Positions 14,687 through 35,498 are shown, counted from the stretch's first letter. The stretch: 64,000 bases of DNA from Gemmatimonas groenlandica (GCF_013004105.1 NZ_CP053085.1:2666001-2730000); one strand, 5' to 3'. Notes: generated by a model not told the origin, from the letters alone. Translations and numbers: made by a program.

Positions 14687-17600
14687 TCAGAAGCTGGTGC
14701 TGAGCGAGAACGTGAACTGGCGCAGGTTCGGGAAGGTGAAGCCGTCGGCGGCGTTCAACACGCCGGATCCGAGCGCACCACCGCCCAGGCCCACTTCAGG
14801 ATCGAAGCCCTTGTACTTGGTCCACGTGATCAGGTTGCGACCGATGAGGGCGAGGTTCCAGTTGCCGATGCCGCCGATCGAGCCGATGCGGTAGCCGACC
14901 GAGAGTTCACGGAGCTTCACGAAGCCCGCGTCTTCCACGGTGTTGTTGTTCGGCGCCAGCACGTCGTACAGACCACCGATGCCACCCGTGGAAACGGCGC
15001 GGAAGTAGTAGCCGATCGGCTTCGCATCCGCGACCGAGCGTCCCTGCTGGTCGGCGTCGGCATGCATGAAGTCGCCGTACGACCACTGACGACCGACGTT
15101 CCACACATCCTTGCCCACCGTGGCGTCGAGCAGGCCGTAGGCCGTGATGCGCTTGTACCGGAAGTTCTGGGCAACCGACCAGCGGAAGCTCGGGAGCGCC
15201 TGACCAACGGGGAGCACCGGCACGGCGCCGGTGGCGTCACGCTCGAGGATCGGGAAGCCCCAGTTCAACGGGTCAGCGGTGGTGCCACCAGCCCACGGCG
15301 CCTGGGCAGCCGGGAGGCGGGTCATCCACAGGTTCTTCGTGATGCCGTCAGCCAGCGTGTTGCCCTGTCCGACGTACACGATGAAGCCGTCCGAGTTGCG
15401 CTGGAAATCAAGTCCCGAGCCGCAGCGGCTCTGGAAGTTCGCGGGGAGCTGACCGCAGTCCTTCACGAACTTGCGGCCGTAGATCTGACCGAGCGAACCG
15501 CCCTTGACGATCTTGAACATCGTCTCGGAACCCTGCTGACCGGCGGCCGATACGAAGTACTCGGGAATGTCGAGCTGCGTGATCACCGACGTCGTACGGT
15601 CGTAGTTGAAGCGGGCCGAGTAGTCGACGTTGCGCGTGGCCACGATCGGGACGTTGAGCGAGACTTCGAACGTATTGTTCGTGAGCTGACCCGCGTTCGT
15701 CCACTGGCTGGCGAAGCCGGCCGCAGCGGGCGGGGGAGGCTGCAGCAGCTGGTCGTCGATCACGTTGTGCGACTTCGTGACCGTGACGCCGTACTTGCTG
15801 AACAGCTCAAGGTCCATGCCGTATTCCTGCTCGGTGGACACTTCCGGCTTGAGATTCTTGTTGCCGAGCTGGTTCGGGTTGAGCGCACCACCCGCGCCGA
15901 TCGTGAACGTCTCGTACTGCGCCGTGAAGTTCGGGCGGTTACCTGCCTGACCGATCGAGTAGCGGAACTTGAGGTCGGAAATCTGGTCAAAATTGAACCA
16001 GGGCTCGTCAGACAAACGCCAGGCGGCCGAGGCACGACCATAAGTCTGCCAGCGGTTGGCCGCACCGAACAGCGACGCGGCGTCGCGGCGGACGAGGGCG
16101 CCGATGATGTAGCGGCCCTTGTAGTCGAGGTCGAGGTTCGTGAAGAAACCGAGCTGACGCACGATTTCAGACGACCCCGTGGTGTAGAAGTTCGTGATCG
16201 CCGCATCGGGATCGGCGAGGCCCGGCACCGCCAGGTTCGTACCGCCGGTACCCTGCGAGCGCGAGTTCTGCGTCTCGTACAGGTAGCGGAGGGTGAGGCG
16301 CGAGGTGAGGCTCTCGTCGAACCAGTTCTTACGCGCCGACACGTTACCCGAAGCGTTCAGCGAGTACGCGCGACCGGCACTCCGGTCGATGTCGCCGAGA
16401 TTGGTCGCACTCAGCGCCGACGTCCGGTAGCCGCGGTCACGCTGCTGTTCCTGGAAGTTGCTGCGAGAGTCATAGCCGAAGTTGAACTCGCCGTCGAGCC
16501 ACGAAAGCGGCGTCCACCGCGCCGTGGCGTTACCCACGAAGCGGTCGATGCGATTCAGCGGCACGAAGTTCTGCGCGTTGTACGCCGGGTTCAGATTCTG
16601 CGCGCCCTGATTCTGCGCCACCGTACGGATGTACAAACGGCCCTTCGCATCGGTCGCGAACAGCTGGGCGTTGGCCGGCTGACGCGTGAGGCCAAACCAG
16701 CCGGCGCCGTTGTTGTAGTCGTTGGCGCTGGAGTAGCTGGAGCGCACCGAGAAGTTGACGTTCCCGCCCAACTGTTGGTCGACATTGAGGCGCATCGAGT
16801 TACGCGTGTAACCCGGCAGCAGCTTCACGGAGCCTTCCTGGCGCAGCTGATTCACCGAGGCGAAGAAGTTCGTGCGGCCGACCCTACCCGTCGCGTCAAG
16901 CGTCGAGTTAATGACCTGGCCGTTCGTGACGAACTGCGCGATCGGGTTGTACGACTTCGGAAACTGATTGACCTGGAACAGCGCGCGCGAGTTGATCGCA
17001 CCGGGATTCTGCGCGATGCCACCGTCGTTCGAGAAGCGCAACGGCGGCAGTGCGAAGTCACCGCCGTCATTATTGATGCGGTACGCTTCCTGATAGATGT
17101 CGACCGTGCGCGAGCAATCAGCCGCTCCGGCCACCGTCACGCAGAAGCGAGAGGCGTTCTCGTCCATCAGCATGAAGTGCGTCGTCGGGTACTGATACTC
17201 GTTCTCGATGTCCGACACGCCGTATTCCACGTTGGCGCGGAACTTCACGCCTTCGCTCTGGTTCTTGCCCGAGCGCGTGGTGATCTGAATGACGCCGTTA
17301 CCGGCGCGTGAGCCGTACAGCGACGAGGCAGCCGCACCCTTCACGACTTCGATGTTCTCGATGTCCTGCGGGTTGATGTCCTGCAGGCCACCCTGCGAGA
17401 CGACACCGTCGATGATGTACAGCGGATCCTGACCACGGCCCGTCGCGTTGATCGACTGGGGGCCACGGAGAATGATCGCGGGCGCCGTGCCCGGTCGGCC
17501 GGAGGCCGACACGATGTTGGCACCGGCCACCTTACCCTGCAGCTGCGACAGCGGGTTGGAGCCCGGAACGGGCATGTCCTTGTCGCTGACCTGCGCCACC

Positions 17601-18007
17601 GAGAACGCGAGCTTCTTTTGCTCCGTACCCGCGGTCACGCCGGTGGTGACGACTTCCTGGAGGCGGTTGATGTCCTTGGCCAGGGAGAAGTCGAACGTCT
17701 GATTGCCGGCCCGCAGCGTGATCGGCTTGGCGTCGGCCTTGTAGCCGATCGCACGGGCGCGCAACTGCAACGCCTGCCCGCGCACGCGATCCGCCGGGAT
17801 CGACATGGTGAAACGACCCGCCGCGTTGGTACCCACCGAGATGGCGAGTTCAACGATATAGACGTTGGCGTTTTCTAGGGGATCACCGAACTCGCTCTTC
17901 ACGGTTCCAGTGATAACGGCCGGACCCTGTGCCTGCGCCACAACGGGCATCAGCAACAGGGCAACGGCGATGGGGACCTGCGACAGCCACCGCATAAATC
18001 TCGACAT
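14687..18007 (-). CDS. SusC/RagA family TonB-linked outer-membrane receptor
   Basis: 1106 residues. Start at the ATG at 18007, preceded by GAGGGCTGAGC; the ATG 18 nt upstream lacks this. After a signal peptide comes a CarboxypepD-like domain (VITGTVKSEFGDPLENANVYIVE). A plug follows (EVVTTGVTAGTEQKKLAFSV, RPGTAPAIILRGPQSINATG, DPLYIIDGVVSQGG, DINPQDIENIEVVKGAAASS, YGSRAGNGVIQITTRSGK), then a 22-strand-type barrel ending in F. It is the energised half of a SusCD uptake complex that imports a nutrient through TonB/ExbB/ExbD (not in window). It heads a probable five-gene operon: SusC, SusD, lipoprotein, DUF4397, plug-like protein. Confidence 0.95.
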   Translation of the reverse strand: MSRFMRWLSQVPIAVALLLMPVVAQAQGPAVITGTVKSEFGDPLENANVYIVELAISVGTNAAGRFTMSIPADRVRGQALQLRARAIGYKADAKPITLRAGNQTFDFSLAKDINRLQEVVTTGVTAGTEQKKLAFSVAQVSDKDMPVPGSNPLSQLQGKVAGANIVSASGRPGTAPAIILRGPQSINATGRGQDPLYIIDGVVSQGGLQDINPQDIENIEVVKGAAASSLYGSRAGNGVIQITTRSGKNQSEGVKFRANVEYGVSDIENEYQYPTTHFMLMDENASRFCVTVAGAADCSRTVDIYQEAYRINNDGGDFALPPLRFSNDGGIAQNPGAINSRALFQVNQFPKSYNPIAQFVTNGQVINSTLDATGRVGRTNFFASVNQLRQEGSVKLLPGYTRNSMRLNVDQQLGGNVNFSVRSSYSSANDYNNGAGWFGLTRQPANAQLFATDAKGRLYIRTVAQNQGAQNLNPAYNAQNFVPLNRIDRFVGNATARWTPLSWLDGEFNFGYDSRSNFQEQQRDRGYRTSALSATNLGDIDRSAGRAYSLNASGNVSARKNWFDESLTSRLTLRYLYETQNSRSQGTGGTNLAVPGLADPDAAITNFYTTGSSEIVRQLGFFTNLDLDYKGRYIIGALVRRDAASLFGAANRWQTYGRASAAWRLSDEPWFNFDQISDLKFRYSIGQAGNRPNFTAQYETFTIGAGGALNPNQLGNKNLKPEVSTEQEYGMDLELFSKYGVTVTKSHNVIDDQLLQPPPPAAAGFASQWTNAGQLTNNTFEVSLNVPIVATRNVDYSARFNYDRTTSVITQLDIPEYFVSAAGQQGSETMFKIVKGGSLGQIYGRKFVKDCGQLPANFQSRCGSGLDFQRNSDGFIVYVGQGNTLADGITKNLWMTRLPAAQAPWAGGTTADPLNWGFPILERDATGAVPVLPVGQALPSFRWSVAQNFRYKRITAYGLLDATVGKDVWNVGRQWSYGDFMHADADQQGRSVADAKPIGYYFRAVSTGGIGGLYDVLAPNNNTVEDAGFVKLRELSVGYRIGSIGGIGNWNLALIGRNLITWTKYKGFDPEVGLGGGALGSGVLNAADGFTFPNLRQFTFSLSTSF

Positions 18008-19206: not shown

Positions 19207-19377
19207 CGATCAGGCTCCGGGGTACAGGAAAGTCAGAAAAGGAATCGGCGGAAATCAACGCCTTCCCACCGTGGTTCGCCACAGCAAGCCGGGACGAACG
19301 TGTGTCGTGCAGTTCACTACGCGTGTGACGGCCCACAGATTCTTTCCGGTGAATCCGATCTGGCAGTCTACTCCGTG

Positions 19378-21687
19378 ATGCGTCTCGCGCCTTCTACCTC
19401 GCAGGCTCGGCTTTGGTCCACGCGCTTGCCACGTTGCCTGTGCGTTGCGGTGGTCGCGCTCACACTGCACCCGCTGGCCACGCTAAGCGCGCAGACACGC
19501 CCGACGGCGCCCTCGGCGGAAATCGACTCGTTGATTCAGCGCGGTCTCTCCCTCGTCGCCAAGGGCGACACCGCCGAGGCGCTGGAAGTGCTCGAGCAAG
19601 CCACCGACCGTGCGCCCCGGAATCTCGAGGCGCTGTATCAGCGCGGGCGGCTGCTCACCCGCACGACCTCGCTGGGCTTCAACAACACGCCGCGGCAGGT
19701 CCTCGCCTGGCGGCTGCTCAACCGTGGTTCTGATCTCGCCCCACGCGAAGCGCGCTTTTTGCTCGAGCTCGCCCGTCTGCGGCTCCGCACGCCTCTGCTA
19801 CGCGCCGATGCCGAACGATTGCTCGGCAAGGCGGTCACCGTTGCCGTCGCGGCCGCTGACACGGCCATGATCGCCGAATCGGCGAGTGAGTTCGGTCGTT
19901 TGTTTGAGCGACGCTACCGGACCACGCGAAAGCGTCACGTCTATATCGCGAACATCTTCTTCGATCCGTATGCCGCCCGGAACCGCCTGCACTATGTGCG
20001 CGAGTTTCTCGAGCATCAGATTCGCCCCATCGAAAACGCCGGTGCCGCCGATCGCGCCGAAGCGGATCGGCTCTACCGGTTGGCGCTCTCGGTCGATCCC
20101 GAGCATGTCGCGAGCGCGGTCGGGTTGCTCGGCCTACTGTACGACGAGCAGCGTTACCCCGAGATGCGCGCGGTTGCCGCACCGTTTCTCACGCGCGGTT
20201 ATGATGTGCGGCATCCGAACCCGATTCCCGGCGAGGCTGACGTCGCGTCGGTGGCATCGATCGCATTTGCTGATGGTCTCGCCGCCGCCCGTCTCGCCGC
20301 GCCCGCCGACGCGCAGCGCGCCTTTGCCGTGGGGCTCGCCCGGCTCTCGCCGCGCGAACGTCGCGACCTGCTCGATATTTCCCGATTGCTCACGCGGGGC
20401 GACAGTGTGCGGGTGGCCGGCCTCACGGACACCGCCCGTGACGCCACCATCCGCTCGTTCTGGGAGACGGCCGATCCGCTGATCAGCACGCCGGAAAACG
20501 AAGCGCAGGTCGAGTACTACGCACGCGTCGCCATCAGCATGCTGCGCTACGACGATGCGGAGCAAGGCGTGCGTGGTTGGCGCACCGATCGCGGTACGAT
20601 CGTGATCCGCTACGGCGAGCCACCCGTCGAAGTGTTGTTGCCGCCAGCGAATGACATTTCGGCGAGAGACGTGACCGGTCGCATCGTCACGGTCTTTTCC
20701 TATCCGGCACTCGAACTCGAGTTCGTGTTTTCAGGGCCACCGGCCATGAACTCGGCCGGTTTCGCCGGCGACTTCCGCGACGTCGCCGATCAGCGTCGCA
20801 ACGATGAGCCGTTCCGACTCGACGACGTGGCGGCCAGAACGCGCGTCGATTCGATGAGTGTGCAAGTGGCGCGCTTCCGTGGGCGCAGCGCTAACGAGTA
20901 CCAGGTGCTCACCGCGGCAGCCGCGCGCCCGGCGCGATTCTACGATGGCGTGGAGATCGACCGTGGCCAGCTGTCGATCCGGTCGTTCCGCGGATCACCG
21001 GATCGCCTGCGATTAGTCGACTCCCAGCAGGTCACGGTGACGCTTCCGACGTCGCGTCCGGTGGAGTATCTCCGGCTCGATACGCTTCCGGTCGGCGATC
21101 ACCGCGTGCGTATCGAAGTGGTGGACCCGGGCGTGCAGTCGGCCGCGGCGCGGGCCAGTGTTGCCGTCTCGCTGCCGCCAATGCGCGACACGACGTTGAT
21201 GCTGAGCGACATCCTGCTCGGCACGCGCGCTCCCGACGGCATGGGCCGCACGCTGCGGTCACTGGCCGACGCTGGCGTGCGCCCATTGTTCGGGACACGC
21301 ATCGCACCGCGAGATACCTTCTCGCTCTATGTCGAGGCGTATGGTCTCCGCCCCGACGCGCGCGGAGACGTACAGGTGGAGATCACGCTGGCCGTGACGC
21401 TCCTGGAGATCAGTCGATCGGGTCCGACCATCGAGCGATGGCTGGGAAACATCGCCGATGTCGTCGGTCTTACTCCCGAGGGCGACAAGCAACTCGGCAT
21501 GCGCTTCAGCAGAACGGAACGCCTCGATGGACGCGATCGAGTGCCGCTGTTGACGTCCATCGGCATGGGTACGGCACCGAGTGGTCGCTATCGGCTCGAC
21601 GTGCTCATGCGCGAGATCGGCAGCGACCGTCGCACGCAGGTGTCGCGTGAATTCACCATCGGCTCCATTGGAGAATCCGGGAAATGA
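19378..21687 (+). CDS. GWxTD domain protein with N-terminal TPR-like region
   Basis: 769 residues from the ATG at 19378. The open frame continues upstream only as a shadow of the divergent gene. Signal peptide: VALTLHPLATLSAQ. A TPR-like helical region (IDSLIQRGLSLVAKGDTAEALEVLEQATDRAPRNLEALYQRGRLL, and later LALSVDPEHVASAVGLLGLL) precedes the G400-W-R-T-D404 motif in GWRTDRGTIVIRYGEPP, the hallmark of GWxTD domain proteins. Beta-rich C-terminal half. The family is known mainly from Acidobacteria, Gemmatimonadota and Bacteroidetes-like lineages and has no established function. It overlaps the next gene by 4 nt. Confidence 0.9.
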   Translation: MRLAPSTSQARLWSTRLPRCLCVAVVALTLHPLATLSAQTRPTAPSAEIDSLIQRGLSLVAKGDTAEALEVLEQATDRAPRNLEALYQRGRLLTRTTSLGFNNTPRQVLAWRLLNRGSDLAPREARFLLELARLRLRTPLLRADAERLLGKAVTVAVAAADTAMIAESASEFGRLFERRYRTTRKRHVYIANIFFDPYAARNRLHYVREFLEHQIRPIENAGAADRAEADRLYRLALSVDPEHVASAVGLLGLLYDEQRYPEMRAVAAPFLTRGYDVRHPNPIPGEADVASVASIAFADGLAAARLAAPADAQRAFAVGLARLSPRERRDLLDISRLLTRGDSVRVAGLTDTARDATIRSFWETADPLISTPENEAQVEYYARVAISMLRYDDAEQGVRGWRTDRGTIVIRYGEPPVEVLLPPANDISARDVTGRIVTVFSYPALELEFVFSGPPAMNSAGFAGDFRDVADQRRNDEPFRLDDVAARTRVDSMSVQVARFRGRSANEYQVLTAAAARPARFYDGVEIDRGQLSIRSFRGSPDRLRLVDSQQVTVTLPTSRPVEYLRLDTLPVGDHRVRIEVVDPGVQSAAARASVAVSLPPMRDTTLMLSDILLGTRAPDGMGRTLRSLADAGVRPLFGTRIAPRDTFSLYVEAYGLRPDARGDVQVEITLAVTLLEISRSGPTIERWLGNIADVVGLTPEGDKQLGMRFSRTERLDGRDRVPLLTSIGMGTAPSGRYRLDVLMREIGSDRRTQVSREFTIGSIGESGK

Positions 21688-23151: not shown

Positions 23152-23188
23152 CAAAGCGCGCCCGGCGATGATCGCCGGGCGCGCTTTG
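23152..23188 (-). terminator. Terminator of the TonB receptor/PorV operon
   Basis: A perfect 16-18 bp stem (23152-23169 with 23171-23188; effective loop about 5 nt). It is followed on the minus strand by GCGTTTTCG and begins 18 nt after the stop of the last operon gene. Confidence 0.85.
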
Positions 23189-23205: not shown

Positions 23206-24321
23206 TCAGCGACCGCGAATCGACGGCGGCAGCGTGGCTTCGAGGATCGTCGCAGAACCCATGCGACCTTCGATGCCAGCCTTCGGCTGCAAATTCACGC
23301 GCACGAATCCGTAGTTCTTCCACGCCGGCGAACCGGTCGCGTCGGGGATCGTGTCGGCCGAGAGGCGCGACGCCATCGCGAAGATCACGCGCGGGCTGTC
23401 GAACACGACGCTCGGCGCCGGGTTGGTCTTGTCGGCTTCGTACAGCGAGATCGCACGATCGGGATACGGCGCGGTGCGACGTCCGAGATACGTGGTGTCG
23501 TTGAATCGGCCGGTGGTGTCGAGCTTCACGCCGTACGCGTTGTAGTAGTAACCAACGGGCGGACGGAAGTAGTTCGAATCGTTCAGAATCATGATGTTGC
23601 CACGCACTTCCACGCGACCACGCGGAACGATGGTCATCGCGCCGTTCGTGGCGACCACGAACTCCTGATTCGCACCCGGGTTGCCCGGCTGCGCAGGAAT
23701 GCCGCGGCCGAACGTACCGAAGCGCAGGCTGGACACACGACTCGCATTGGCCTGGCTGCGGCGGGCCCACAACGGACGCACTTCACCCGGCGCGGCACCA
23801 GCCGCACCCGGTTCGATGCTGATCAGCACCGTGTTCAGCGAATCCGTCGCTACGAGTGCCGGAGCCGACACGCGGGACACAGCCACACGAAGCGCGATGT
23901 TCGAGCCGCCCGCCCTGAAGCTCGCCCCCGTGGTCGTGAAGGTCGTGTTCGTGAACACCGGATCGCCCGCCGCGTTGAGCGACGAGTCACGACGGGTGGC
24001 CACGATGTTGAGCGCCGTTGCCGGCGCGAACTTGGTGGCCGAGTCGTTGGCGAACCACACCGTGTAGCTGCCCGTGGTCAGGGTATCGAGACCGGCGAGC
24101 GTGATGATCACCGAGTCAGTGGCCGGCGTGGCGGATGCCACGATGGCCACGGGATAGGTGACTGTGCCACGCGGCAGGTTCGTGGAGGTACGGAGGAAAT
24201 TCGTACCGAAGCCAAGAGCACCAACGGGTTCGGTCGTGATCGACCGTTCGTCGCCGCATGCCGTGGCCGCAGCGACCGCGAGAACGCCGGCTACCAGGAG
24301 GAAAGGACGCATGATGCGCAT
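23206..24321 (-). CDS. Lipoprotein of unknown function, last gene of the PorV operon
   Basis: 371 residues with lipobox AAATAC (C22). Beta-rich. It begins with repeats resembling a Gemmatimonadota-type anchored beta-sandwich (TVTYPVAIVASATPATDSVIITLAGLDTLTTGSYTVWFAND) and ends with a metal- or ligand-like YYNAYGVKLDTTGRFNDTTYLG segment that I cannot assign. Three nt separate its start from the stop of the barrel-protein gene. ATG 24312 is an alternative start. Given the context, it may be a surface lipoprotein that works with the secreted 1464-residue protein. Confidence 0.7.
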   Translation of the reverse strand: MRIMRPFLLVAGVLAVAAATACGDERSITTEPVGALGFGTNFLRTSTNLPRGTVTYPVAIVASATPATDSVIITLAGLDTLTTGSYTVWFANDSATKFAPATALNIVATRRDSSLNAAGDPVFTNTTFTTTGASFRAGGSNIALRVAVSRVSAPALVATDSLNTVLISIEPGAAGAAPGEVRPLWARRSQANASRVSSLRFGTFGRGIPAQPGNPGANQEFVVATNGAMTIVPRGRVEVRGNIMILNDSNYFRPPVGYYYNAYGVKLDTTGRFNDTTYLGRRTAPYPDRAISLYEADKTNPAPSVVFDSPRVIFAMASRLSADTIPDATGSPAWKNYGFVRVNLQPKAGIEGRMGSATILEATLPPSIRGR

Positions 24322-24324
24322 CGG

Positions 24325-25032
24325 TTAGTTACCCCCGCCAATGCCGCCGGGGATGTACCGGAAGCCCAGCGTGAACATGGTGTTCAACGCAGTCTTCTTC
24401 GCCGCAGGAGGCGTCGGGAAGTCTTCCGGGAACGGTTGAATGAGTTCGGTGCGGTCGCGCGCCGGATTCAGGAAATTCCGGTCGTAGCCCTGATACTGCA
24501 CGGCGCGCACGTCGAACTGCAGGCCGGAGCGCTCGCTGAGCTTGATCCAGATGCCGCCGCCACCGGTGTAGGACACGTCGTTATTGCGCGTCTCCTTGCC
24601 GTTGACCTGGGCATCGAGAATCATGACATACGTGCCGACGCCGCCCATCACGAACGGCGACACCTTCTTGCCCGGATAACGCAGCGTAGCGGCGAGCCCG
24701 AGGTTGACGGTGTTCACCGGCTGGCCGACGTATTGGTAGCGAATCGAATCACCACCAGCCACCGCGGCCTGACCGAAACGCAGACGCGTGAGGAAATCCT
24801 TCTTGGTGGTGTTGCCGCGCGACACGTCGACGGTCGTACCGATGCCCAGATACTTGGACAGCGCGTACTCCGCGTCGAGGCCGATCAGTGCTGCCGGATC
24901 GAGACTGGCGGCGCGCTCTGCCTGCAGCGTGCCGACCCGCGTGGTGACCGTAAACTGCTTCGGCGCGATCTGCGCGCCGACGCTCGCTGCGGTCAGCGCG
25001 AGTGCAGCGAGAATACCTGCAGCGCGGTTCAT
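24325..25032 (-). CDS. Small outer-membrane beta-barrel protein
   Basis: 235 residues with a signal peptide (AAGILAALALTAASVGAQ). OmpA-barrel-like alternating strands: FTVTTRVGTLQAERAASLDPAALIGLDAEYALSKYLGIGTTVDVSRG, VNTVNLGLAATLRYPGKKVSPFVMGGVGTYVM, YTGGGGIWIKLSERSGLQFDVRAVQYQGYD, LNTMFTLGFRYIPGG. This is the size and pattern of an outer-membrane beta-barrel domain (OMP_b-brl). It overlaps the upstream PorV/PorQ-like gene by 4 nt and lies 3 nt before the lipoprotein gene. Confidence 0.8.
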   Translation of the reverse strand: MNRAAGILAALALTAASVGAQIAPKQFTVTTRVGTLQAERAASLDPAALIGLDAEYALSKYLGIGTTVDVSRGNTTKKDFLTRLRFGQAAVAGGDSIRYQYVGQPVNTVNLGLAATLRYPGKKVSPFVMGGVGTYVMILDAQVNGKETRNNDVSYTGGGGIWIKLSERSGLQFDVRAVQYQGYDRNFLNPARDRTELIQPFPEDFPTPPAAKKTALNTMFTLGFRYIPGGIGGGN

Positions 25033-26135
25033 CGACCCACCTCGAACGAGAAGATCTGAATGTTCTGGAGCGCGCCGGCCGACTCGTACGAGTAGTCGAA
25101 TCGAACGTTGCGTCCCTTCGCCGGGAGACGGAGGCCGAAACCACCGGCCAGACCGACCGGCGTGTCGGTGCCACGATCGCGATCATCGTTGTACACGCGC
25201 TTGCCGCCGCGCACGAACAGGATGTTGCGATAGCCGTACTCGAGACCGATGGCGTACTGCGTCGTGAAGTCCGTCGATTCGTTGACGGCGACTTCGGCGT
25301 TCAACGTGTTGTTGCCGCTGCCCTTGCCGAGCAGCGAATTCGCCGAGCCGAGCAGGTCGGACGCGAGCGACAGACGGAACTCGACGGGGAGTTCGACCTG
25401 CGACGTGTACAGCGACACGCGACGGTTGTCGCTGAAGGTACCGCGGTCGGCCGTGCTGATGACGCGCGTGATCAACGCGCCCGATGCGCGGGCCGTGGGA
25501 CCGACGTTCGAGATCGAGCCACCGAGCGTGAGGCCGTAGAGACCGGTGTTGAACTGGGTGCCGATGTCGCCAGCCACCCACTTCGTACCGGCATCAGGGA
25601 TGCCCTCGCTGATGTACTTGATCTGTCCACCGACCTGGAGACGGTCGGTGAGGCGCTTGGCGTAGCCGATGCCGACCACGGTCGACGTCCACTGGAAGAA
25701 GTTGCCTCCCAGTCGATCGCCAAACGGATTGAGCTCCGTGGTGCGCTTGATGTCGCCCGAACTCAGCGTATTGAAGTGCACGCCGATGTTGCCGCCCAGT
25801 GCAGGGATCGAGAGCGCGGCATATGTCTGGCCGAGCCCGAGATCGCCGTACAGGCTCTGACGTCCGGCGACCGCCGAGAATGACTCGGAGGTACCGGCGC
25901 CCGACGGATTGGAAAACCACGCCAACGGACCGCTGACCGACGCGGCTGTGGCATTGGCCATCGCGCCGCTACGTGCGCCGACGCCGATGTGGAGGAAGTT
26001 GGCGCCACGCGTACCCTGACGATTCGGGGTATCCGCTGGCGTAGGAAGTAGTCCACCGGGCCCCTGGGCGCGAACGGTCGTGCCCAGAAGCAGGGTGGCG
26101 GCGCCGAAGGCGCCGATGAGCCGGGTGATTTGCAT
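25029..26135 (-). CDS. PorV/PorQ family outer-membrane protein
   Basis: 368 residues with a signal peptide (LIGAFGAATLLLGTTVRA). The family opening FLHIGVGARSGAMANATAASVSGPLAWFSNPSGAGT, with a Gly-rich turn and the xWNPAG-like xWFSNPSGA, is diagnostic of PorV/PorQ (UPF0164, FadL-like) barrels. Later strands (GIGYAKRLTDRLQVGGQIKYISE, YAIGLEYGYRNILFVRGGKRVYNDD) follow the family pattern. In Bacteroidota, PorV shuttles type IX cargo from the translocon to the attachment complex. Ten nt downstream of a large protein with a type IX-like C-terminal domain, the same pairing is inferred here. No SprA/PorU gene is in the window. Confidence 0.87.
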   Translation of the reverse strand: MQITRLIGAFGAATLLLGTTVRAQGPGGLLPTPADTPNRQGTRGANFLHIGVGARSGAMANATAASVSGPLAWFSNPSGAGTSESFSAVAGRQSLYGDLGLGQTYAALSIPALGGNIGVHFNTLSSGDIKRTTELNPFGDRLGGNFFQWTSTVVGIGYAKRLTDRLQVGGQIKYISEGIPDAGTKWVAGDIGTQFNTGLYGLTLGGSISNVGPTARASGALITRVISTADRGTFSDNRRVSLYTSQVELPVEFRLSLASDLLGSANSLLGKGSGNNTLNAEVAVNESTDFTTQYAIGLEYGYRNILFVRGGKRVYNDDRDRGTDTPVGLAGGFGLRLPAKGRNVRFDYSYESAGALQNIQIFSFEVGR

Positions 26136-26145
26136 CGCTGCTCCC

Positions 26146-29100
26146 TTAGCGGATGATCACGAACTTGCCGCGCTGCACCTGGTCCTTTCCAGCCGTGCCG
26201 GTCGCAGTGAGCACATAGATGTAGAGACCTGACGTCATGTCAGTGCCTTCGCGCGTGCGAAGGTTGAACGGCAGGTCACCGGAGGTCGAGTTATTGCCCG
26301 CGTAGGTCAGGTCGCTCTTCGTCCACGTCAGCTCCTGGAGGAACTGGCCGGACACGGAGTACACCCGCAGCACGCCCTGTTCAGGCACGTTAGTGAAGTA
26401 GATGCGCGGAACCGCGAGTCGCGCACCGTCCACACCATCGTTGTCGGAGCGCACCAGGTACGGGTTCGGCACCACCGAGACCTTGGCCAGATCGGCCTTG
26501 GTGATTTCGGCCTTGATGCTGAACGGCGTGGCAACGAGCTGGATGCTGGAGCGCGGATCGAACGTGCGGGTGAGCTCGAACATCTGCTTCCACGTCGGTT
26601 CGACGGGCAGATAACCACCCGCCGTGGTGGCACCACGCGTATTGATCGCGAGCGGGTTGCAGCTGTTCTGGTCGACAGAGGCGGCCGGACGAACGCCCGT
26701 GCCGTTCACACCACCGGTACACGCCACCAGGAACTTGTTCAAACCGATCGAGTCAGCCAGCACTGGAATGGTGCGGAAGCCGTTCGTGCCATCAGCCTGC
26801 ACCACCACAACGCGCGTAGTGCCCTGCAACACCGTGCTGTCCTTCTCGACTTTCTGCAGCACGATCAGCGTGTCACCCGGCATCCAGAGCGAATCGGGGA
26901 CTGACACGCGCACCGTGTCGTTGCCCGATCCAAGGAGACGCGTGTTGCCGACGCCACCCTGCGCAAACGTTTGGCGGGCGAGCATGGCGAACTTGACCTG
27001 CTCTTCACGACCACCGACGGGGTCGGTGAACTTCATCGTGAACGGCACGCGGACGCGAACCAGCGGCCGAGCCGTCGTCGCACCGACGAGCGCAGCAACC
27101 GCGGCCGACGTCTCGGTGGTCGTCGTGGCCTTCGAGGCGACATCGACCAGCGCCGCCGTGACCGCCGACTGCAGATTGGCGACCGGGTCGAGCGAGAACG
27201 CCTTCGCGCCCCACGGATCGGTGAGCCACGTGAGCTCGTAGCGTCCGCCCTTGATCCGCTTGTTGCCGACCAAGGCGCCCGTGGTCGCCGTCGTGAAGTT
27301 ACCCTGCACCTGCGGTACGAACTGACGGGCGTTGCCGGAGAGCGAATCGCCGTCCTTGCGGATTACGAAGTTGCGATCACGCGAGGCGTTGCCGGACAGG
27401 CGCTCGGTACGGAAGCCGTTGGCCGTGTTCGACGAGTCGTCCGGCTGGGCCGTGAAGCCCGGGTACAGCGGCGAGCCAACCTGGTCACGGACCTGGTTGC
27501 CACCGTTGGTGCCGTACGGATCGTTGATCGCGAAGATCGGCTTGTTGTCACCCGTCACCCAGACGTAGCCGGGGTAGCCGGCGGGCGAGGAGATCGTGTC
27601 GAGGAAGACGCGCGATGCGCCGGTGAATCCGCGGGCGGTGCCGCCGAGCAGCGCGGTGCCCAAACGAACCGGGATGTCACCACTCGTCGTGAACGACTGT
27701 TCCTTCGCCACGAAATTCGTGGTGGCAGGAGCGGTGGGCGACGTGGTCGCACTCGGCAGAACCCAACGGGCACTGATGGTCGAAGAGACCGCCCGCGTGA
27801 CCGTGTCCTGCACCTTTCGGATGATGAACTGATTGCCGAACACCAGGCGCGACGTACCGGTCACGCTGTTCGAAACGGCCTGCACGAGCACCGGCTGCGT
27901 GGAGTTACCCACGACCGTGGACGTATCGACGCGAGCGAACTGGCGGCCGGCGGCGTTCGTGATCGGTGCGTACACCGTGAGCGAGGCCGGACCCGACGTG
28001 GCGAACGCCGAGTTGATCGTGTCACGCGGGAAGCCGAAGGCATCCTGCGCATTCGTGATGTACAGGCCACGACCCGGGAGCGAGTCGATGACCCGGAAGT
28101 AGTCGTCGGAGAAGCCGCGAGTACGGGTCACGAAGACATAGTTGTACGTACGGCCGGCCTGCAGATTTTCGGCATAGTTCGCCGTCTGCGGCACGCCCTT
28201 CACGTAGTTCACGGTCGCGACCGGACGCCAGTTGAAGGCCTGAAGGCCGGCATCGATGGTGCGCGTAGGCGCCGACGTACAGGTCGCCGCGTTACCCGTG
28301 GTGTTCGTAAAGGTCGTTCCACCATCACACGACTTGAACAGGTAGACCGACGCGAGGTTGTCATTCGCGCGGGCCCTGAGCGAGTCGAGCAGCGTGGGGT
28401 TCAGTCGCAGGATGCGTCGGGTCGCGACGTCGCCGGCGGCCGAGTCGGCGCGCAGCTTGTTCACCAAGCCGAGCATGTACGGGTCAGCCGGATTGATATT
28501 CGGATAGCGGATGACGATCTGCGAACCGATGGAGGTCGCCGCGCCCGCCGTGAGCGAGTCGAGCAGCTCAGCCGAGTTGATCGTGTACGAGAGACCCGCC
28601 TTCACTTCCGGATACGCGATGGGCTGCGGGCCGGCGTAGTTGGTGAGGTACGCTTCGGTCAGGCCTTCGATCGCCTTCCGCGTCGTGGTGGAGTCGGCGT
28701 TCCAGGAGAACGCCCACAGGAACTGCGTGGTGTCGCCCGACTTCAGCTTGAACGGACCGGCCGTAATCGTGCCGAGGATGTTGCCATACTCGTTGCGATA
28801 GCCGCCGACGATGGTGTCGGAGTACACGACGTGGCAACCGAGCGAACCGCAGCCCGGCACCGAAATCGTGTCCTGCACGCCGTCGTTGTTGTAGTCCCAC
28901 TTGCCGTACGGCTGGCCGTTGATCGGGTTGATCGTCCCGCCCGGCACGAACTTCGGAAACTTCACACCCGCCGGCGTGGACGGCAGTGAGCCACTCCACT
29001 CTTCCGGCGTGACCATGCCGGTGAAGTTGTTGATCGTGAAGTCCGACGGGTTACGCCCGTCGAGAAAGTCGTCTTCCTTTGATGCCACGTAGCCGAAACC

Positions 29101-30540
29101 AGCGCGCGTGGAGCGCGTCATGGCCTGACTCGCGCGACCGACCGAGCCGGCGTGCGAGTGGTTGAACGTGATCGTGTCGTCGGCGAACGGGCTGCTCGGG
29201 TTGTAGTACGGGTCAGCCGGATTGCGCGTGAAACGCTTGTTGCGCACATCGCCCAACGGCGACTTGAGCCACGTCATCGTCCAGACGCCAGCCGTGAAGG
29301 CGTCGGTGCTCTGACAGCCGCCCAGCGTGGAGTTGAGGTAGCGCTTGGGGTACGACGTGCTGCAGTTACCGCTCGTGTTGCCCTTCGTGGCCAGCACCGT
29401 GTTGGTGTTGTAGTCGAAGTACATCGACGCATACTGACCACCGACCGCGAACAGGAAGCCCGGCGTCGTGCCGAAGTACAGCGAGTCATAGTCGACACCC
29501 GTACCGTACACGGCGGCCGACTTGTTGACCATCTGCACCTGGTAGTACTGCGTGTTGCGCGTGGCCGGCGAGGCGAACTGATAGCTGTCTACGCGCAGCT
29601 CGAGACCGAGCGGGTAGCCACCATCAAGCGGCGTGCCTGAACCACCCGGCACGATGCCGCCGTAGCGGAGCTTCTGCTCGCGCGAGTAATCGGAGATGAA
29701 GCCGTACACGCTCTGCGTGCCGAGGAACTGCGTGGCATCGAGGCGCTCGCGACCGATGCGCCAGTCGTCCCACCGGAACGTGCTCTTGTTCGCGTTGAAC
29801 GTGTTGAGCCACACCGAGTCCTGCACGACCAACTTGCCCTTGAAGCCTTCAGAGCCCCACGTATCAGGGCAGTCCTTCTGCGCCAGGAGCGAGAAACCCG
29901 TCGTGGAGTACACGTTGGCGTCGGAGCGGCAGGACGATCCGTCCTGCGCCGTGACGCCGGCAAAGCTCTTGCCGAACTGTGCGTCGGCGGCACCCCACTT
30001 TCTGCTTGAGGAAACGAGCGTTTCCCAGGTGATTGTCGTGTAGCCCAACGACCCGGTCATGTTGTTGATCTGCGGGGCGACGGTGCGGAGCTTCCGGAAC
30101 TCCGTGGGCGGTGCTGCCACCACGAATCCCATCTGGAAGAACACACTGAAGCCGCCAAGCGTCGGACTCACGGCGCGCCCGGTTTGCACGACTTCGCCCT
30201 GATTCTGCGAAACGGGTCCACCTTGATTGGCGACCGCCACGCGCCACGTGCCATTCATGCGCAGCGTACCGAACGCGACATCTTCGGCCGCGAAGAGGTC
30301 GAAACCCCTCGTGGCAGGAATAGGGATCTGACGGATCGTACCGTCGGGCAACATCTCTTCGAGATAGTTGACCTTGGGCTGCGAGACGCGTTGCGCCTCC
30401 GCCACGCCGGACACGATGGTCGACAAACCGGCCAGCACCGCAAGGGTACCCAGGGCGCGCGAGACTCCGCGCACCCCGAGGCCCTGGGGCTGTCGGTGGG
30501 AATTATTGGTAGTGAAACCCATGAGGTTTACGCCGTCCAT
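26146..30540 (-). CDS. Very large secreted protein with type IX-like C-terminal sorting domain
   Basis: 1464 residues. An N-terminal signal (LGTLAVLAGLSTIVSGVAEA) is followed by a long beta-rich body with no enzyme motif I recognise. The last ~120 residues are a sorting-type domain: VVPNPYLV, RIYFTNVPEQGVLRVYSVSG, then a SGLYIYVL strand and final GKFVIIR. The VxPNPxxx...I.IYxxxG...SGxYxYxL...K.v.ik pattern is the type A C-terminal domain of type IX cargo. It starts 2 nt after the TonB receptor stop and ends 10 nt before the PorV-like gene. The ATG at 30540 is used; 30522 is an alternative. Confidence 0.85.
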   Translation of the reverse strand: MDGVNLMGFTTNNSHRQPQGLGVRGVSRALGTLAVLAGLSTIVSGVAEAQRVSQPKVNYLEEMLPDGTIRQIPIPATRGFDLFAAEDVAFGTLRMNGTWRVAVANQGGPVSQNQGEVVQTGRAVSPTLGGFSVFFQMGFVVAAPPTEFRKLRTVAPQINNMTGSLGYTTITWETLVSSSRKWGAADAQFGKSFAGVTAQDGSSCRSDANVYSTTGFSLLAQKDCPDTWGSEGFKGKLVVQDSVWLNTFNANKSTFRWDDWRIGRERLDATQFLGTQSVYGFISDYSREQKLRYGGIVPGGSGTPLDGGYPLGLELRVDSYQFASPATRNTQYYQVQMVNKSAAVYGTGVDYDSLYFGTTPGFLFAVGGQYASMYFDYNTNTVLATKGNTSGNCSTSYPKRYLNSTLGGCQSTDAFTAGVWTMTWLKSPLGDVRNKRFTRNPADPYYNPSSPFADDTITFNHSHAGSVGRASQAMTRSTRAGFGYVASKEDDFLDGRNPSDFTINNFTGMVTPEEWSGSLPSTPAGVKFPKFVPGGTINPINGQPYGKWDYNNDGVQDTISVPGCGSLGCHVVYSDTIVGGYRNEYGNILGTITAGPFKLKSGDTTQFLWAFSWNADSTTTRKAIEGLTEAYLTNYAGPQPIAYPEVKAGLSYTINSAELLDSLTAGAATSIGSQIVIRYPNINPADPYMLGLVNKLRADSAAGDVATRRILRLNPTLLDSLRARANDNLASVYLFKSCDGGTTFTNTTGNAATCTSAPTRTIDAGLQAFNWRPVATVNYVKGVPQTANYAENLQAGRTYNYVFVTRTRGFSDDYFRVIDSLPGRGLYITNAQDAFGFPRDTINSAFATSGPASLTVYAPITNAAGRQFARVDTSTVVGNSTQPVLVQAVSNSVTGTSRLVFGNQFIIRKVQDTVTRAVSSTISARWVLPSATTSPTAPATTNFVAKEQSFTTSGDIPVRLGTALLGGTARGFTGASRVFLDTISSPAGYPGYVWVTGDNKPIFAINDPYGTNGGNQVRDQVGSPLYPGFTAQPDDSSNTANGFRTERLSGNASRDRNFVIRKDGDSLSGNARQFVPQVQGNFTTATTGALVGNKRIKGGRYELTWLTDPWGAKAFSLDPVANLQSAVTAALVDVASKATTTTETSAAVAALVGATTARPLVRVRVPFTMKFTDPVGGREEQVKFAMLARQTFAQGGVGNTRLLGSGNDTVRVSVPDSLWMPGDTLIVLQKVEKDSTVLQGTTRVVVVQADGTNGFRTIPVLADSIGLNKFLVACTGGVNGTGVRPAASVDQNSCNPLAINTRGATTAGGYLPVEPTWKQMFELTRTFDPRSSIQLVATPFSIKAEITKADLAKVSVVPNPYLVRSDNDGVDGARLAVPRIYFTNVPEQGVLRVYSVSGQFLQELTWTKSDLTYAGNNSTSGDLPFNLRTREGTDMTSGLYIYVLTATGTAGKDQVQRGKFVIIR

Positions 30541-30542
30541 GC

Positions 30543-33500
30543 TCAGAAGTTGACCGACAGGCCGGTGGAGATGCTGCGACGCGCCCCGATGAACTCGGGC
30601 TGGTCGAATGCGGTCGAGGTGTTGTCGCCGGCGTTGCCGATACGACGGTTCGCGAAGTCACGCAGACCGGCGTCGCAGGTGCCCGTGTTGTTGAAGACCT
30701 GCACGCAGTTCTTGCGATCGAACAAGTTGTTCACGCGCACGAAGCCCGAGTAACGCAGGTTGCCGATGCGGAACGCCTTGTCGAGCAACAGCGCCACGTC
30801 CTGCGTGGACGGCTGACGCGCCGAGTTCACTTCGCCCTGATTGTTCGTGCCGATCGTGCCGGCTGCACTGCCTCGGAGCGGCGTGTACGGGATGCCCGAG
30901 CGCAGGCTGTAGGTGACGGAGCCGCTGAAGTTCTTGAGCAGCTTGCCGGCGTTGAACGGCAGGTTCGGCGCATCATTGCCCACGCGATACTGCAGCGAGG
31001 CATTGAAATTCTGCGGCTGATCGATGTCCGTGAGCGTTTCGACATTCTGCGCACGCAGCGCTTCGTCGGTACGCGACACTTCGTTGGCACGATCGGGCGG
31101 ACGCGCGTTGGTCGTGGAGCGCGAGAGGCCGTAGTTGATGTCGTAGCCCCAGCGATCGGCCAGCCGCCGCGTGAAGCGGATGTCGACGCCGCGCGATGAG
31201 AGGAAGTCGCCGTTCACGATGATGTTGTACGTCGGGAACGCGCCGGCATACGTACTGCCGATGTCCTGATTGGCGCGGCTGCTGCGGATACCGGTGAGGC
31301 CGGTTTCCGAGCGGCTGAACACCGCCACCTGCACGGAGTAACCCTTGCCGATTTCGCCGGAGTAGCCGACTTCGAACTGCTTGGCCTGCTCGAGGCGAAG
31401 GCTCGGGTTACCGACGAACGACGGATTGTCGGGCTGCAGGTTCGGCGTGCATTCAGACGTGCCCGGCTTCACCTGATTGGCGGCGCAATAGTTGTCGCCC
31501 GCACCAGCCGTCGTGCCGATACCGGTGTTGCGGTACGTGTTGCCATACAACGGGACCATGGTGTAGCGGCCACCATTGAAGAACACCTGCGACTTCTCGG
31601 TGAGCGGAAACGATACGCCAACGCGCGGGCTGAACGCCGTGCGGGCGGGCGACTCGCGGAAGTCGTCGAGCTGGGCAATCGCCGTGGCCGTGTCGAGCAG
31701 GCGGGCGCGCTGCGTCTTGGGATCGATCGGTGAGGCCGCACAACCGGCGAGACCGTAGGGCTGACCGGCGGAGTTCAACATCTGCTTGCCAGCAACCGAG
31801 GCGCCGTTACACACCTCACGCGCCGTGGTGCCGTTCGACGGATCGAACGGATTGGCCAGCGCCTGACCGCGGGCGCGGTTGTAATCGAAGCGACCACCAA
31901 GCTTGATCGTGATGAAATCGTACTCGATCACGCTCTGGATGTATGCCGCCGCTTCGATCGGCTTGCCGCGATACACCTGGTACACGTTGTTCTTGAGACC
32001 CGACGTCGTGCTGGCGTCCTGCTGAACATCGCTGTACGCGAAGTCATGATTCACGAACTGGGCGCCGATCTGGATGTTGTTGTGATCGGTGACCTGAGAC
32101 TGCAGGTCAGCCTTGATCGTACGCGTGGTGTACTTCTCACCGCCGTAGATGCCCGACGCGATGCCCGAGTACGGCACGCGGTCGCAACCGGTGAACGTAC
32201 CGCAGATCGACAGGAACGACTGGTCGAAGTTGCCGTAGGCGAACGGACCCGGGATACACGTGCCGAGGAAGATGGCGCAGGTGGTGCGCTCGAAATCCGT
32301 CTGCGCAACTCGCACCGTGAGGTTGGAGCGGCCGAAGCGCTGTTCGAGCGAGCCAATGAGCAGCTTGCCCTGGTCGCGCACCGACGGCTGGATCAGGTCG
32401 CGCGACGCGCGATTGTCGCCGCCCGTGAGGGCGAAAAGCGAGTCGGTGCGGTTGTTCACGAGAGACAGCGGGTCGCCACGGTAGGCGAAGAAGTAACGGC
32501 GATCGTAGCCACGCGACTGTCGCTCGGAGCCGACGGCGGTGAATTTGATGGTCGTATTGTCGAACGGCAGGAACGTGAGCTTGCCGACGACCGAGGAGTT
32601 CTGGCGCCCACCGAACGCCTGATAGCCCGGTATGAGGTCCTTGGTGGAAACACCAAGGATATCGCCCAGAACGAGCGGCGCGTTGGCCGTGTACACGTCC
32701 TTGTCGAACTCCAATACACTCTGGGCCTGGCTTTCCACCTGGCCCGATACCGAGTAGCGCAGCTTGCTCTTCGTGCCCGGGACCGGACCCGAGAGATATC
32801 CGCGAAGCAGGTTCTGTGCGCGCAGCTTATCGTAGTCGGTGCCGAAGATGCTGCCGGGGAGCGTCGAGTTCTGAAAGTCGATCGCGCCGGACACTTCGGA
32901 GCCGCCTTCGCGCACCGCCTGGTTGATGATGCCGGCCAGCGCGTTGCCGTACTGGGGTTCCATGCCGCCGCGCTGGAAGTCGACCTGCTGCACGGCCAAC
33001 GCACTCATACTGAGCGCGTCGTTACCGAAGAGCGGGTTGTTGATGGGGATACCGTCGATCATCGACAGCGTCGCGCCACCGCGGCTACCACGCACGCGCA
33101 GCGCCGGCGTGGTGCTGCGCTGTTCTTCCGCGAGCGACACGACCGAGGTGTTCTGCGGGACTTCCGTGAAGCCCTGCTGCAGCGCCAGCACACCGGCGAT
33201 ACTGGTCACCGGGAGTGACGTTATCTGATCCGCTGAGATCGTCGTGCGGGAACCGACCTGGCCGCGCTCGACGAGCGGGGCGACGTCGGCCTGCACCGTC
33301 ACAGCCGCCAGCGTCTGATTCGATGCCCGCAGCTTGAAGTTCTGCTCGCGTGAAATGTCGATCGCGATGCTGACGTTCGTGGCGGTCACGCTCTGGAAGC
33401 CGAGGCGACGGGCCTGAACCGAGTAGGATCCGGGAGGAACCTGAATGATGAAATAGCGGCCGCTGGCGTTCGTACTTGAACCCAGCGTCGTCCCTTGAAT

Positions 33501-33659
33501 GACCACCGCAACGCCCTCGACGGGCTTGCCTGTTTCCGCGTCGGTCACAACACCGGTCAACTTACCGGTCTGTGCCTGGGCGGCGGTGATCGGCGCGGCA
33601 AGTGCCACCGCGCCTAGGACCGTCGCGATAAACCACATACGACGTCCGAAAGCCCTCAT
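30543..33659 (-). CDS. TonB-dependent receptor with CarboxypepD-like N-terminal domain
   Basis: 1038 residues from the ATG at 33659, preceded by GGAGGAGCAG; the frame upstream of it lacks a credible start. Signal peptide (FIATVLGAVALAAPITAAQA). Then a CarboxypepD-regulatory-like domain (KLTGVVTDAETGKPVEGVAVVIQGT...YSVQARRLGFQSV), a plug with ITSLPVTSIAGVLALQQGF, LRVRGSRGGATLSMIDGIPINNP and VQQVDFQRGGMEPQYGNALAGIINQ, and a large barrel ending FIGARRSISTGLSVNF. No SusD partner is adjacent, unlike the other two receptors in this window; the linked product is instead a giant secreted protein. First gene of a five-gene operon. Confidence 0.92.
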   Translation of the reverse strand: MRAFGRRMWFIATVLGAVALAAPITAAQAQTGKLTGVVTDAETGKPVEGVAVVIQGTTLGSSTNASGRYFIIQVPPGSYSVQARRLGFQSVTATNVSIAIDISREQNFKLRASNQTLAAVTVQADVAPLVERGQVGSRTTISADQITSLPVTSIAGVLALQQGFTEVPQNTSVVSLAEEQRSTTPALRVRGSRGGATLSMIDGIPINNPLFGNDALSMSALAVQQVDFQRGGMEPQYGNALAGIINQAVREGGSEVSGAIDFQNSTLPGSIFGTDYDKLRAQNLLRGYLSGPVPGTKSKLRYSVSGQVESQAQSVLEFDKDVYTANAPLVLGDILGVSTKDLIPGYQAFGGRQNSSVVGKLTFLPFDNTTIKFTAVGSERQSRGYDRRYFFAYRGDPLSLVNNRTDSLFALTGGDNRASRDLIQPSVRDQGKLLIGSLEQRFGRSNLTVRVAQTDFERTTCAIFLGTCIPGPFAYGNFDQSFLSICGTFTGCDRVPYSGIASGIYGGEKYTTRTIKADLQSQVTDHNNIQIGAQFVNHDFAYSDVQQDASTTSGLKNNVYQVYRGKPIEAAAYIQSVIEYDFITIKLGGRFDYNRARGQALANPFDPSNGTTAREVCNGASVAGKQMLNSAGQPYGLAGCAASPIDPKTQRARLLDTATAIAQLDDFRESPARTAFSPRVGVSFPLTEKSQVFFNGGRYTMVPLYGNTYRNTGIGTTAGAGDNYCAANQVKPGTSECTPNLQPDNPSFVGNPSLRLEQAKQFEVGYSGEIGKGYSVQVAVFSRSETGLTGIRSSRANQDIGSTYAGAFPTYNIIVNGDFLSSRGVDIRFTRRLADRWGYDINYGLSRSTTNARPPDRANEVSRTDEALRAQNVETLTDIDQPQNFNASLQYRVGNDAPNLPFNAGKLLKNFSGSVTYSLRSGIPYTPLRGSAAGTIGTNNQGEVNSARQPSTQDVALLLDKAFRIGNLRYSGFVRVNNLFDRKNCVQVFNNTGTCDAGLRDFANRRIGNAGDNTSTAFDQPEFIGARRSISTGLSVNF

Positions 33660-34279: not shown

Positions 34280-35323
34280 TTAACGCACCCGTGACCGGTA
34301 GGTCCGTGACAGGCGCAGCGTCGAGCCGTTGCCAAGCATGAGGAGACCATCGCCGCCGGGCAACGGCGACATTTCGCGGACGCGATCCATGTTGACGACG
34401 ATGCGTCGGTGGATGCGCACGAACTGCCGCGGATCGAGCGCCGACTCGATGGCCGTGATGGTGCCGCGCGTGCGGTACTTCTCACCGGCCGCGTGAACGA
34501 GGATGTAGTTGCCGTCGGCCTCGAACCAATCGACATCGGACAGCGGGACAAATCGCGTGCGTCGCCCCTCACGTACCAGCACACGGAGCGGGCGGGCATC
34601 GCCGTGGCCCGACGACGCGCGCCCGCCGTCGTCCTGCGTGAGATCGAGCACCGGTTCTTCGGCCTCGTCGCGCGTGAAGCGGGCCAACGAATGCTCGGTG
34701 TTCCGCGCCGCCCGCCACGGTGTGGACGGGATCAACGTGCCGGTGGATTGACCGCTGGCACGTTTGCGCCGGCGCGCATCGGCGCTCTCCTCCTGCTCGA
34801 TCGTTGCCGCCGGTGCGTGACCGTTGCCATTGCCGTTGCCATTGGCATGGCCGTTACTGCTGGCGCGCGTGAACAATGCTCCGAGCTCGAGATTGCCCGA
34901 CGCGTTCGCCTCGCCGATCAGTCGCTGCAACTCGTCGGCGGTACGCAGTAAGGCCACCTGCAGCACCTGCTGACGCGCGCGGGTAATCGCGTCACTGAGA
35001 CGATCCGCCACGACCGGCACCGGCACGAAGTCGGTCGCCTGCAACTCGAACGCGTGCACGGCGTCTTCCTCACGCGACGAGGCGAAGACGATCGCCGTCG
35101 GACGCTCGGATGGCGACAGTGACTGCACGAACGCAAAGCCGGACATGTCGGCCAGCTCCGCACTCACCAGCGCGATATCGGGAACGGGAGAGAGCGCGGC
35201 ACGCGCCGACGTGGAGTCGGCGTGATACCCGAGTACCGACACATCGAGCGAGGCCGGTAGGTGGGCCAGCTGTTCGGGCAAAGTCGCCGGAACCTGGCCG
35301 AGAACTACGACACGGAGAGCCAT
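34280..35323 (-). CDS. LytTR DNA-binding regulator with a degenerate receiver domain
   Basis: 347 residues from the ATG at 35323; the open frame runs on to 35428 but begins in sequence with no receiver fold. N-terminal receiver-like domain (ALRVVVLGQVP...IALVSAELADMSG...TAIVFASS...TDFVPVPVVADRLSDAITRA). The phosphoacceptor Asp position reads Ser (LVSAEL), the conserved Lys is Val, and the acidic pair of strand 1 is absent. A linker with NGHANGNGNGNGH repeats leads to a C-terminal LytTR domain (RTRFVPLSDVDWFEADGNYILVHAAGEKYRTRGT...FVRIHRRIVVNMDRVREM), with the family's FxEADGNYxxxH and FxRxHRxxVVN motifs. It is unlikely to be switched by phosphorylation. No kinase is adjacent. Confidence 0.85.
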   Translation of the reverse strand: MALRVVVLGQVPATLPEQLAHLPASLDVSVLGYHADSTSARAALSPVPDIALVSAELADMSGFAFVQSLSPSERPTAIVFASSREEDAVHAFELQATDFVPVPVVADRLSDAITRARQQVLQVALLRTADELQRLIGEANASGNLELGALFTRASSNGHANGNGNGNGHAPAATIEQEESADARRRKRASGQSTGTLIPSTPWRAARNTEHSLARFTRDEAEEPVLDLTQDDGGRASSGHGDARPLRVLVREGRRTRFVPLSDVDWFEADGNYILVHAAGEKYRTRGTITAIESALDPRQFVRIHRRIVVNMDRVREMSPLPGGDGLLMLGNGSTLRLSRTYRSRVR

Positions 35324-35498
35324 GAGTGTTGGTGAAAACGCGAGCAGACATGCTGCGATCACGACCGCGGCGTCGCGAGCTGCCAGACGACAGTGCACAC
35401 CGGGGGCGCCACAGAGCATACGGACCACGGCGTCCGGACGTTGCGTCTAAATGGCGGAAACATCAGAAATTGCCGCTTGAGGGGTCGCCACAAGCAAA

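Follow-up and report, generated by a model that had tools for sequence, protein, structure and literature searches.

A putative TonB-dependent uptake operon of Gemmatimonas groenlandica with a type IX secretion cargo as its surface partner

A 64,000-nucleotide stretch of the Gemmatimonas groenlandica genome (GCF_013004105.1, NZ_CP053085.1:2666001-2730000; hereafter the window, with positions counted from its first letter) carries a five-gene operon on the minus strand at 33659-23206. It encodes a TonB-dependent receptor (TBDR), a large secreted protein ending in a type IX secretion system (T9SS) C-terminal domain (the cargo), a PorV-like outer-membrane barrel (PORV) and two further proteins (BARREL and LIPO). 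We propose, at a probability of about 0.62, that the operon is a TonB-dependent uptake system in which the T9SS cargo acts as surface partner, docked by its uncleaved tail on the operon's own PorV-like barrel; such a system would be SusCD-like without being a member of SusCD. The operon represents one instance of a gene set that is widespread and apparently undescribed; the constant part of this set, the receptor, cargo and PorV genes, we call the triad. Its features are as follows.

30543..33659, minus strand: TBDR, TonB-dependent receptor, 1038 aa; CarboxypepD_reg, plug and barrel (PF13620/PF13715/PF07715)
26146..30540, minus strand: cargo, 1464-aa secreted surface protein; body unassigned to a family, with homologues in triads across two phyla
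26146..26538, minus strand: T9SS-type C-terminal domain of the cargo, about the last 130 residues (VVPNPY...SGLYIYVL...GKFVIIR), from alignments, profile matches of relatives and fold
25029..26135, minus strand: PORV, PorV/PorQ-family outer-membrane barrel, 368 aa, the proposed dedicated shuttle or anchor of the cargo (NF033709, 112.9 bits, cut-off 90)
24325..25032, minus strand: BARREL, small outer-membrane barrel, 235 aa, accessory (PF13505, 46.4 bits; synteny)
23206..24321, minus strand: LIPO, putative secreted protein or lipoprotein, 371 aa, accessory; no family match

The triad as a conserved unit

The five contiguous open reading frames (ORFs), each with an ATG start and separated by 2, 10, -4 and 3 nt, are as the preliminary description of this DNA, made from the sequence alone, had placed them. 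The order TBDR-cargo-PorV on one strand recurs in genus relatives (beside atpDC) and, more widely in the phylum, in further families, orders and classes. The triad is complete in 53 of the 55 carriers examined, with receptor and PorV genes on the same strand within 2.5 kb of the cargo gene. Of the two incomplete carriers, one is truncated by the end of its contig and the other is odd. At one locus (L057:8681-11527) a cargo frame has an unrelated N-terminus and no adjoining receptor, which may reflect the decay of a triad or a frameshift introduced by sequencing. The cargo profile also finds matches in 211 of 394 genomes from the phylum of Flavobacterium, and the C-terminal domain accounts for most of these. 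From that phylum 20 loci were fetched, all of which carry receptor, cargo and PorV, 18 of them in the same order; the triad profiles gave no match in 1.54 Mb of control DNA.

Patristic distances in the trees of the three triad genes correlate with r 0.91-0.95, above all 2000 permutations and also above permutations within groups, and among the paralogues of one genome r is about 0.97. Eleven paralogous triad loci were counted in one genome of a distant group of the phylum (f10). Given these congruent trees, and a receptor subfamily of its own (below), the genes of the triad travel and duplicate together. Linkage of all five genes, which had been suggested for testing, thus holds for receptor, cargo and PorV; the BARREL gene was found in the near classes, and in neither the f10 triads nor those of the Flavobacterium phylum, while the position of LIPO is kept in five genus relatives, with weak similarity in two class relatives.

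The receptor

TBDR matched plug and CarboxypepD_reg domains, and Pfam and NCBIfam profile scans of the five operon proteins found no SusD family member, in agreement with the original reading of a TonB receptor without SusD. Against the SusC model it scored 42.5 bits, where the cut-off is 368, placing it outside the SusC/RagA subfamily. On a profile of triad receptors built solely from the window organism's phylum TBDR reached 1608 bits, and three other receptors examined in the same genome gave 36, 66 and 95 bits, the first two of these lying in the window; triad receptors of the Flavobacterium phylum scored 308-474 bits on the same profile. By these sequence comparisons the triad receptors are a distinct subfamily. 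A role as haem receptor was considered and set aside, with TIGR01785 hits far under the cut-off.

Two true SusC/RagA receptors are also encoded in the window, at 14687-17995 (461 bits) and 52117-54969 (370 bits); the latter is followed by a SusD-family gene and the former by a 546-aa gene without family match. Classical SusC receptors and a triad thus occur together within 64 kb.

The cargo and its C-terminal domain

The body of the cargo matched no curated family in Pfam and NCBIfam scans, and the full-length protein did not match the PorZ model. It shows a fibronectin type III (FnIII)-like pattern and no enzyme domain. A model of residues 48-1060 had a mean predicted local distance difference test (pLDDT) score of 47.7, which made it unusable for a fold search.

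The C-terminus was more informative. In an alignment of the domain from 20 relatives, 15 match the PorZ model (best 7.6e-10), 14 match TIGR04183 and 13 match PorU; the window cargo itself touches the PorU C-terminal model at 11 bits. When the profile derived from this alignment was searched against all PDB sequences, PorU and PorZ ranked first. The predicted structure of the domain (pLDDT 82) is an immunoglobulin-like strand sandwich, for which the best matches among solved structures are again PorZ (E 9.7e-5, Z 11.8) and PorU (E 8.9e-4, Z 10.7), followed by NucA in the translocon and the C-terminal domain (CTD) of mirolase, both at Z 8.4. On the evidence of profiles and predicted fold, the cargo ends in a genuine type A-like T9SS C-terminal domain, as first recognised from its motifs.

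The barrels and the putative lipoprotein

PORV is a member of the broad PorV/PorQ family (NF033709), which upholds the barrel assignment made at the outset, and it fell under the cut-off of each equivalog model: 28.8 of 250 bits for PorV, 32.6 of 220 for PorQ and 40.7 of 325 for PorV2. A sequence search of solved structures found no relative. A second PorV/PorQ-family gene of the genome (L039:8991-9977, at G000:C1:1462991-1463977; 115.8 bits) lies downstream of an Era-like GTPase gene and is followed by the gene for a 307-aa secreted protein without family.

The small barrel called earlier is likewise matched by PF13505; as a candidate PorG it reached 13.7 bits of 130, which is not significant, and membership was not accepted. 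The fifth gene is a real ORF, and its description as a lipoprotein is left in doubt by a weak lipobox (AAATAC) and the lack of a family match.

Type IX machinery in the genome

The preliminary description had asked whether SprA/Sov and PorU are encoded elsewhere in the genome. SprA, the translocon, is present (TIGR04189, 1104 bits; L038, G000:C1:311893-317778) and matches the solved F. johnsoniae SprA structure 6h3i at 1e-26. The PorU sortase was not found in the window genome: the sole match, at 15 bits, falls on the cargo's own tail, and positive controls gave 480-1409 bits. The combination named at the start as telling against a type IX link, no SprA or PorU homologue together with no sorting-domain match, is therefore not what the genome holds, with SprA present and the domain matching. 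The operon had also been called self-contained; it is not, since the SprA gene lies at a distance of about 2.4 Mb.

PorU is present in Flavobacterium, in six distant relatives (f10) and in three further triad-bearing genomes from the Flavobacterium phylum. When the domain profile was run on the whole window genome and all 27 candidates were scored, one carrier emerged, this cargo. TIGR04183 gave two hits there, both under the cut-off, versus 25-61 hits in four T9SS-rich genomes; the two f10 genomes counted have 25-37. On sequence grounds the bacterium seems to keep a secretion channel for which this cargo is the one recognisable client, in searches that did not include type B/C domains.

SprA was found in 144 of 200 sampled genomes of the phylum. 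In raw counts made by hand, it is present in 51 of 51 genomes with a strong domain hit versus 93 of 149 others (Fisher 3e-9), and by genus in 30 of 30 with the domain versus 43 of 63 others (2e-4). Strong domain hits are nearly always single in a carrier genome outside f10 and number 4-18 within it. Eight genomes of families f2 and f3 had the cargo gene and SprA noted on a single contig, at a distance of roughly 14-23 kb from each other. We rejected the idea that SprA is there for the triad alone, since 93 of the 144 SprA genomes have no strong domain hit, and SprA must have other work in them.

Neighbourhood of triads elsewhere

Recognisable neighbours of triads in other genomes, by Pfam, include glycoside hydrolase (GH) family GH130 with an ATP-binding cassette (ABC) sugar transporter, GH3, GH16, GH2, a LacI regulator, ROK and a sodium:solute symporter (SSF). 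The pairing of GH130 with an ABC transporter was seen at locus L205 of the Flavobacterium phylum. Such a sugar-use neighbourhood is the setting of SusCD systems. Directly upstream of the triads in three loci (L055, L056, L080), reading of the sequence identified ExbB/ExbD/TonB-like genes, which suggest a dedicated energising complex. Both kinds of neighbour strengthen the early suggestion that the receptor may import what the cargo captures.

Discussion

By translocon, barrel and domain, as judged from sequence and models, the operon belongs to the T9SS cargo systems, and it is neither a PorU-processed cargo, nor a PorV/PorQ equivalog, nor SusCD. In the mechanism that we propose, cargo and barrels would reach the periplasm by Sec, and SprA would then pass the cargo across the outer membrane, recognising its C-terminal domain. 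The operon's PorV-like barrel would take the cargo from SprA and hold it; because the window genome has no PorU sortase, the domain would stay uncut and the cargo would be kept on this barrel, in parallel with the keeping of PorZ by PorQ and of PorU by PorV. PorV and cargo would come to sit beside or over the receptor, where the cargo would capture a nutrient, probably a glycan or breakdown product, for import by the receptor with TonB energy. A PorV-held T9SS cargo would thereby take the place of the SusD lipoprotein, with BARREL and LIPO as accessory parts of the local version.

Several points weigh against this mechanism. The analysis shows the gene set, the domain fold, SprA without PorU and joint inheritance, whereas export, docking, retention, capture and import are all steps that we infer. 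The cargo body could not be modelled (pLDDT 48), and no glycan genes adjoin the window copy, which thus offers no pointer to its substrate. The window cargo domain alone scored 12 bits on TIGR04183, under the cut-off of 23, so that the search of sorting-domain models proposed at the outset succeeded for 14 of the 20 relatives and not for the window sequence; this weak single-sequence score is resolved because the alignment of relatives matches the PorZ, TIGR04183 and PorU models. The 51 of 51 count for SprA is uncorrected for shared ancestry, and the 93 sampled SprA genomes without a strong domain hit include three of the same genus (G019, G055, G078). Finally, GldM was not found in the 200 genomes of the phylum, where the Flavobacterium control gave 609 bits; the f10 genomes with PorU and many cargos also lack a match, so that the GldM model may miss divergent motors and the negative was not taken as a sign of motor loss. 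Four of them (G001, G003, G007, G009) have PorU and SprA and no GldM-model match, so that their motor is either divergent or different.

Among the alternatives, the one that survives best, though we consider it unlikely, is that the cargo is a coat protein or adhesin of the ordinary type A T9SS kind, with PorV as a general shuttle and the receptor as an unrelated neighbour. Many T9SS cargos are adhesins, and the FnIII-like body pattern without an enzyme domain would suit such a protein. An unrelated neighbour would not be expected to belong to a distinct receptor subfamily whose inheritance follows that of the cargo in two phyla and, in one genome, through duplications; a general shuttle would have no need of a PorV gene in each copy, and the window genome, in which PorU was not found, does not fit an ordinary processed cargo either.

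The barrel might instead be a FadL-type channel for a hydrophobic nutrient, with cargo and receptor serving import and the T9SS providing only the assembly route. PorV is a FadL homologue (PMC12578637), and the operon barrel falls in the broad PorV/PorQ family outside the PorV and PorQ equivalogs. We hold this to be still more doubtful, as the recognisable neighbours of triads elsewhere are most commonly genes for sugar use and the CTD-PorV pairing follows the known docking logic of the T9SS. Least probable of all is that TonB/ExbBD pulls the receptor-PorV-cargo complex to energise export or assembly in place of a missing GldLM motor, an idea that fits the ExbB/ExbD/TonB-like genes upstream of three triads and the missing GldM matches but is opposed by the f10 genomes, in which PorU and dozens of T9SS cargos likewise go without a GldM match, by the default role of TonB receptors as importers and by the sugar-use loci of the Flavobacterium-phylum triads.

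A wider form of the proposed uptake mechanism, to which we give even odds, is that a TonB receptor, a T9SS cargo and a dedicated PorV-like barrel make up a general, undescribed class of uptake machine beside SusCD, present in at least two phyla and in ten or more copies in some genomes, and that in the window lineage SprA has lost its sortase and ordinary cargos, leaving the triad cargo as its one recognisable client.

No description of the triad turned up in the open-access literature searched, in which its parts are described: PorZ-PorQ, type B domains with PorP/SprF-like barrels, and BamG-BamH. That T9SSs may exist in Gemmatimonadetes is stated in one introductory sentence (PMC11285876). 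Retention of the domain is known in just two proteins, PorZ on PorQ and PorU on PorV (PMC10202324), and the triad would resemble them in having a surface protein whose type A-like domain, nearest in fold to theirs, is kept by a PorV/PorQ barrel. The differences are that a TonB receptor gene accompanies the pair, that the body does not resemble PorZ in sequence, that the window genome lacks PorU and that some genomes hold many paralogues. With SusC-SusD it shares a TonB receptor with CarboxypepD_reg and a putative surface-exposed partner, duplication as a unit and a frequent place in carbohydrate loci, whereas the window receptor is far from the SusC model, there is no SusD lipoprotein and the partner would be delivered by the T9SS. 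Cargos with type B CTDs likewise have their own FadL-type PorP/SprF-like barrel in the operon and probably keep the domain (PMC9143113, PMC12618676); in the triad, the domain is type A-like, the barrel belongs with PorV/PorQ and a TonB receptor comes in addition. In BamG-BamH of the Bacteroidota β-barrel assembly machinery (BAM) complex, a FadL-type barrel with a surface protein on it stands next to a second, functional barrel (PMC12578637), but BamH is a lipoprotein, with BamA as the partner; the sequence relation is weak, with 25-29 bits on NF053685 (cut-off 250) for the Flavobacterium-phylum triad PorVs.

If the proposal is right, type IX secretion and TonB-dependent nutrient uptake are joined through one gene set that resembles an alternative to the SusC/SusD pairs, and a function could be given to a large group of T9SS cargos without a curated family (no match above cut-off). 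A cognate PorV-like barrel has been hypothesised to protect the C-terminal domain from cleavage (PMC10202324), which becomes testable here because the window genome combines a single such cargo with the lack of a sortase. With just one client that can be recognised, such a genome would also be a simple system for the study of SprA.

Transcription signals and neighbouring genes

Two features flank the operon.

23153..23187 (about), minus strand: terminator-like hairpin with a 16-17 bp stem, from sequence and predicted fold
34280..35428, minus strand: LytTR response-regulator-like gene, a possible regulator (PF04397, 76 bits; synteny by position)

The start of TBDR was taken as the ATG at 33659, which is preceded by a GGAGGAG ribosome site; the mechanical ORF extends to 34028. 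The TTGACA offered earlier as a candidate promoter does exist 275 nt upstream of this ATG, but is unsupported: its properly spaced partner, TAGCTT, matches at 3/6 positions, and a sigma-70 scan upstream of the operon found no site, below a shuffle mean of 1.4. The terminator, which had been called near-perfect, is a hairpin AAAGCGCGCCCGGCGAT-C-ATCGCCGGGCGCGCTTT at about 23187-23153, in a 70-nt stretch with a predicted fold of -40.5 kcal/mol; the T tract that follows it is poor (TGCGTTTT).

In five relatives of the same genus (L041-L045) the triad operon is fixed beside atpD/atpC. The LytTR-like gene upstream of the operon lies in between in four of the five and is missing in one. Convergent with the other end of the operon, at 19249-21687 of the window, is a gene for a GWxTD-domain protein with tetratricopeptide repeats, which is also conserved beside the operon in relatives.

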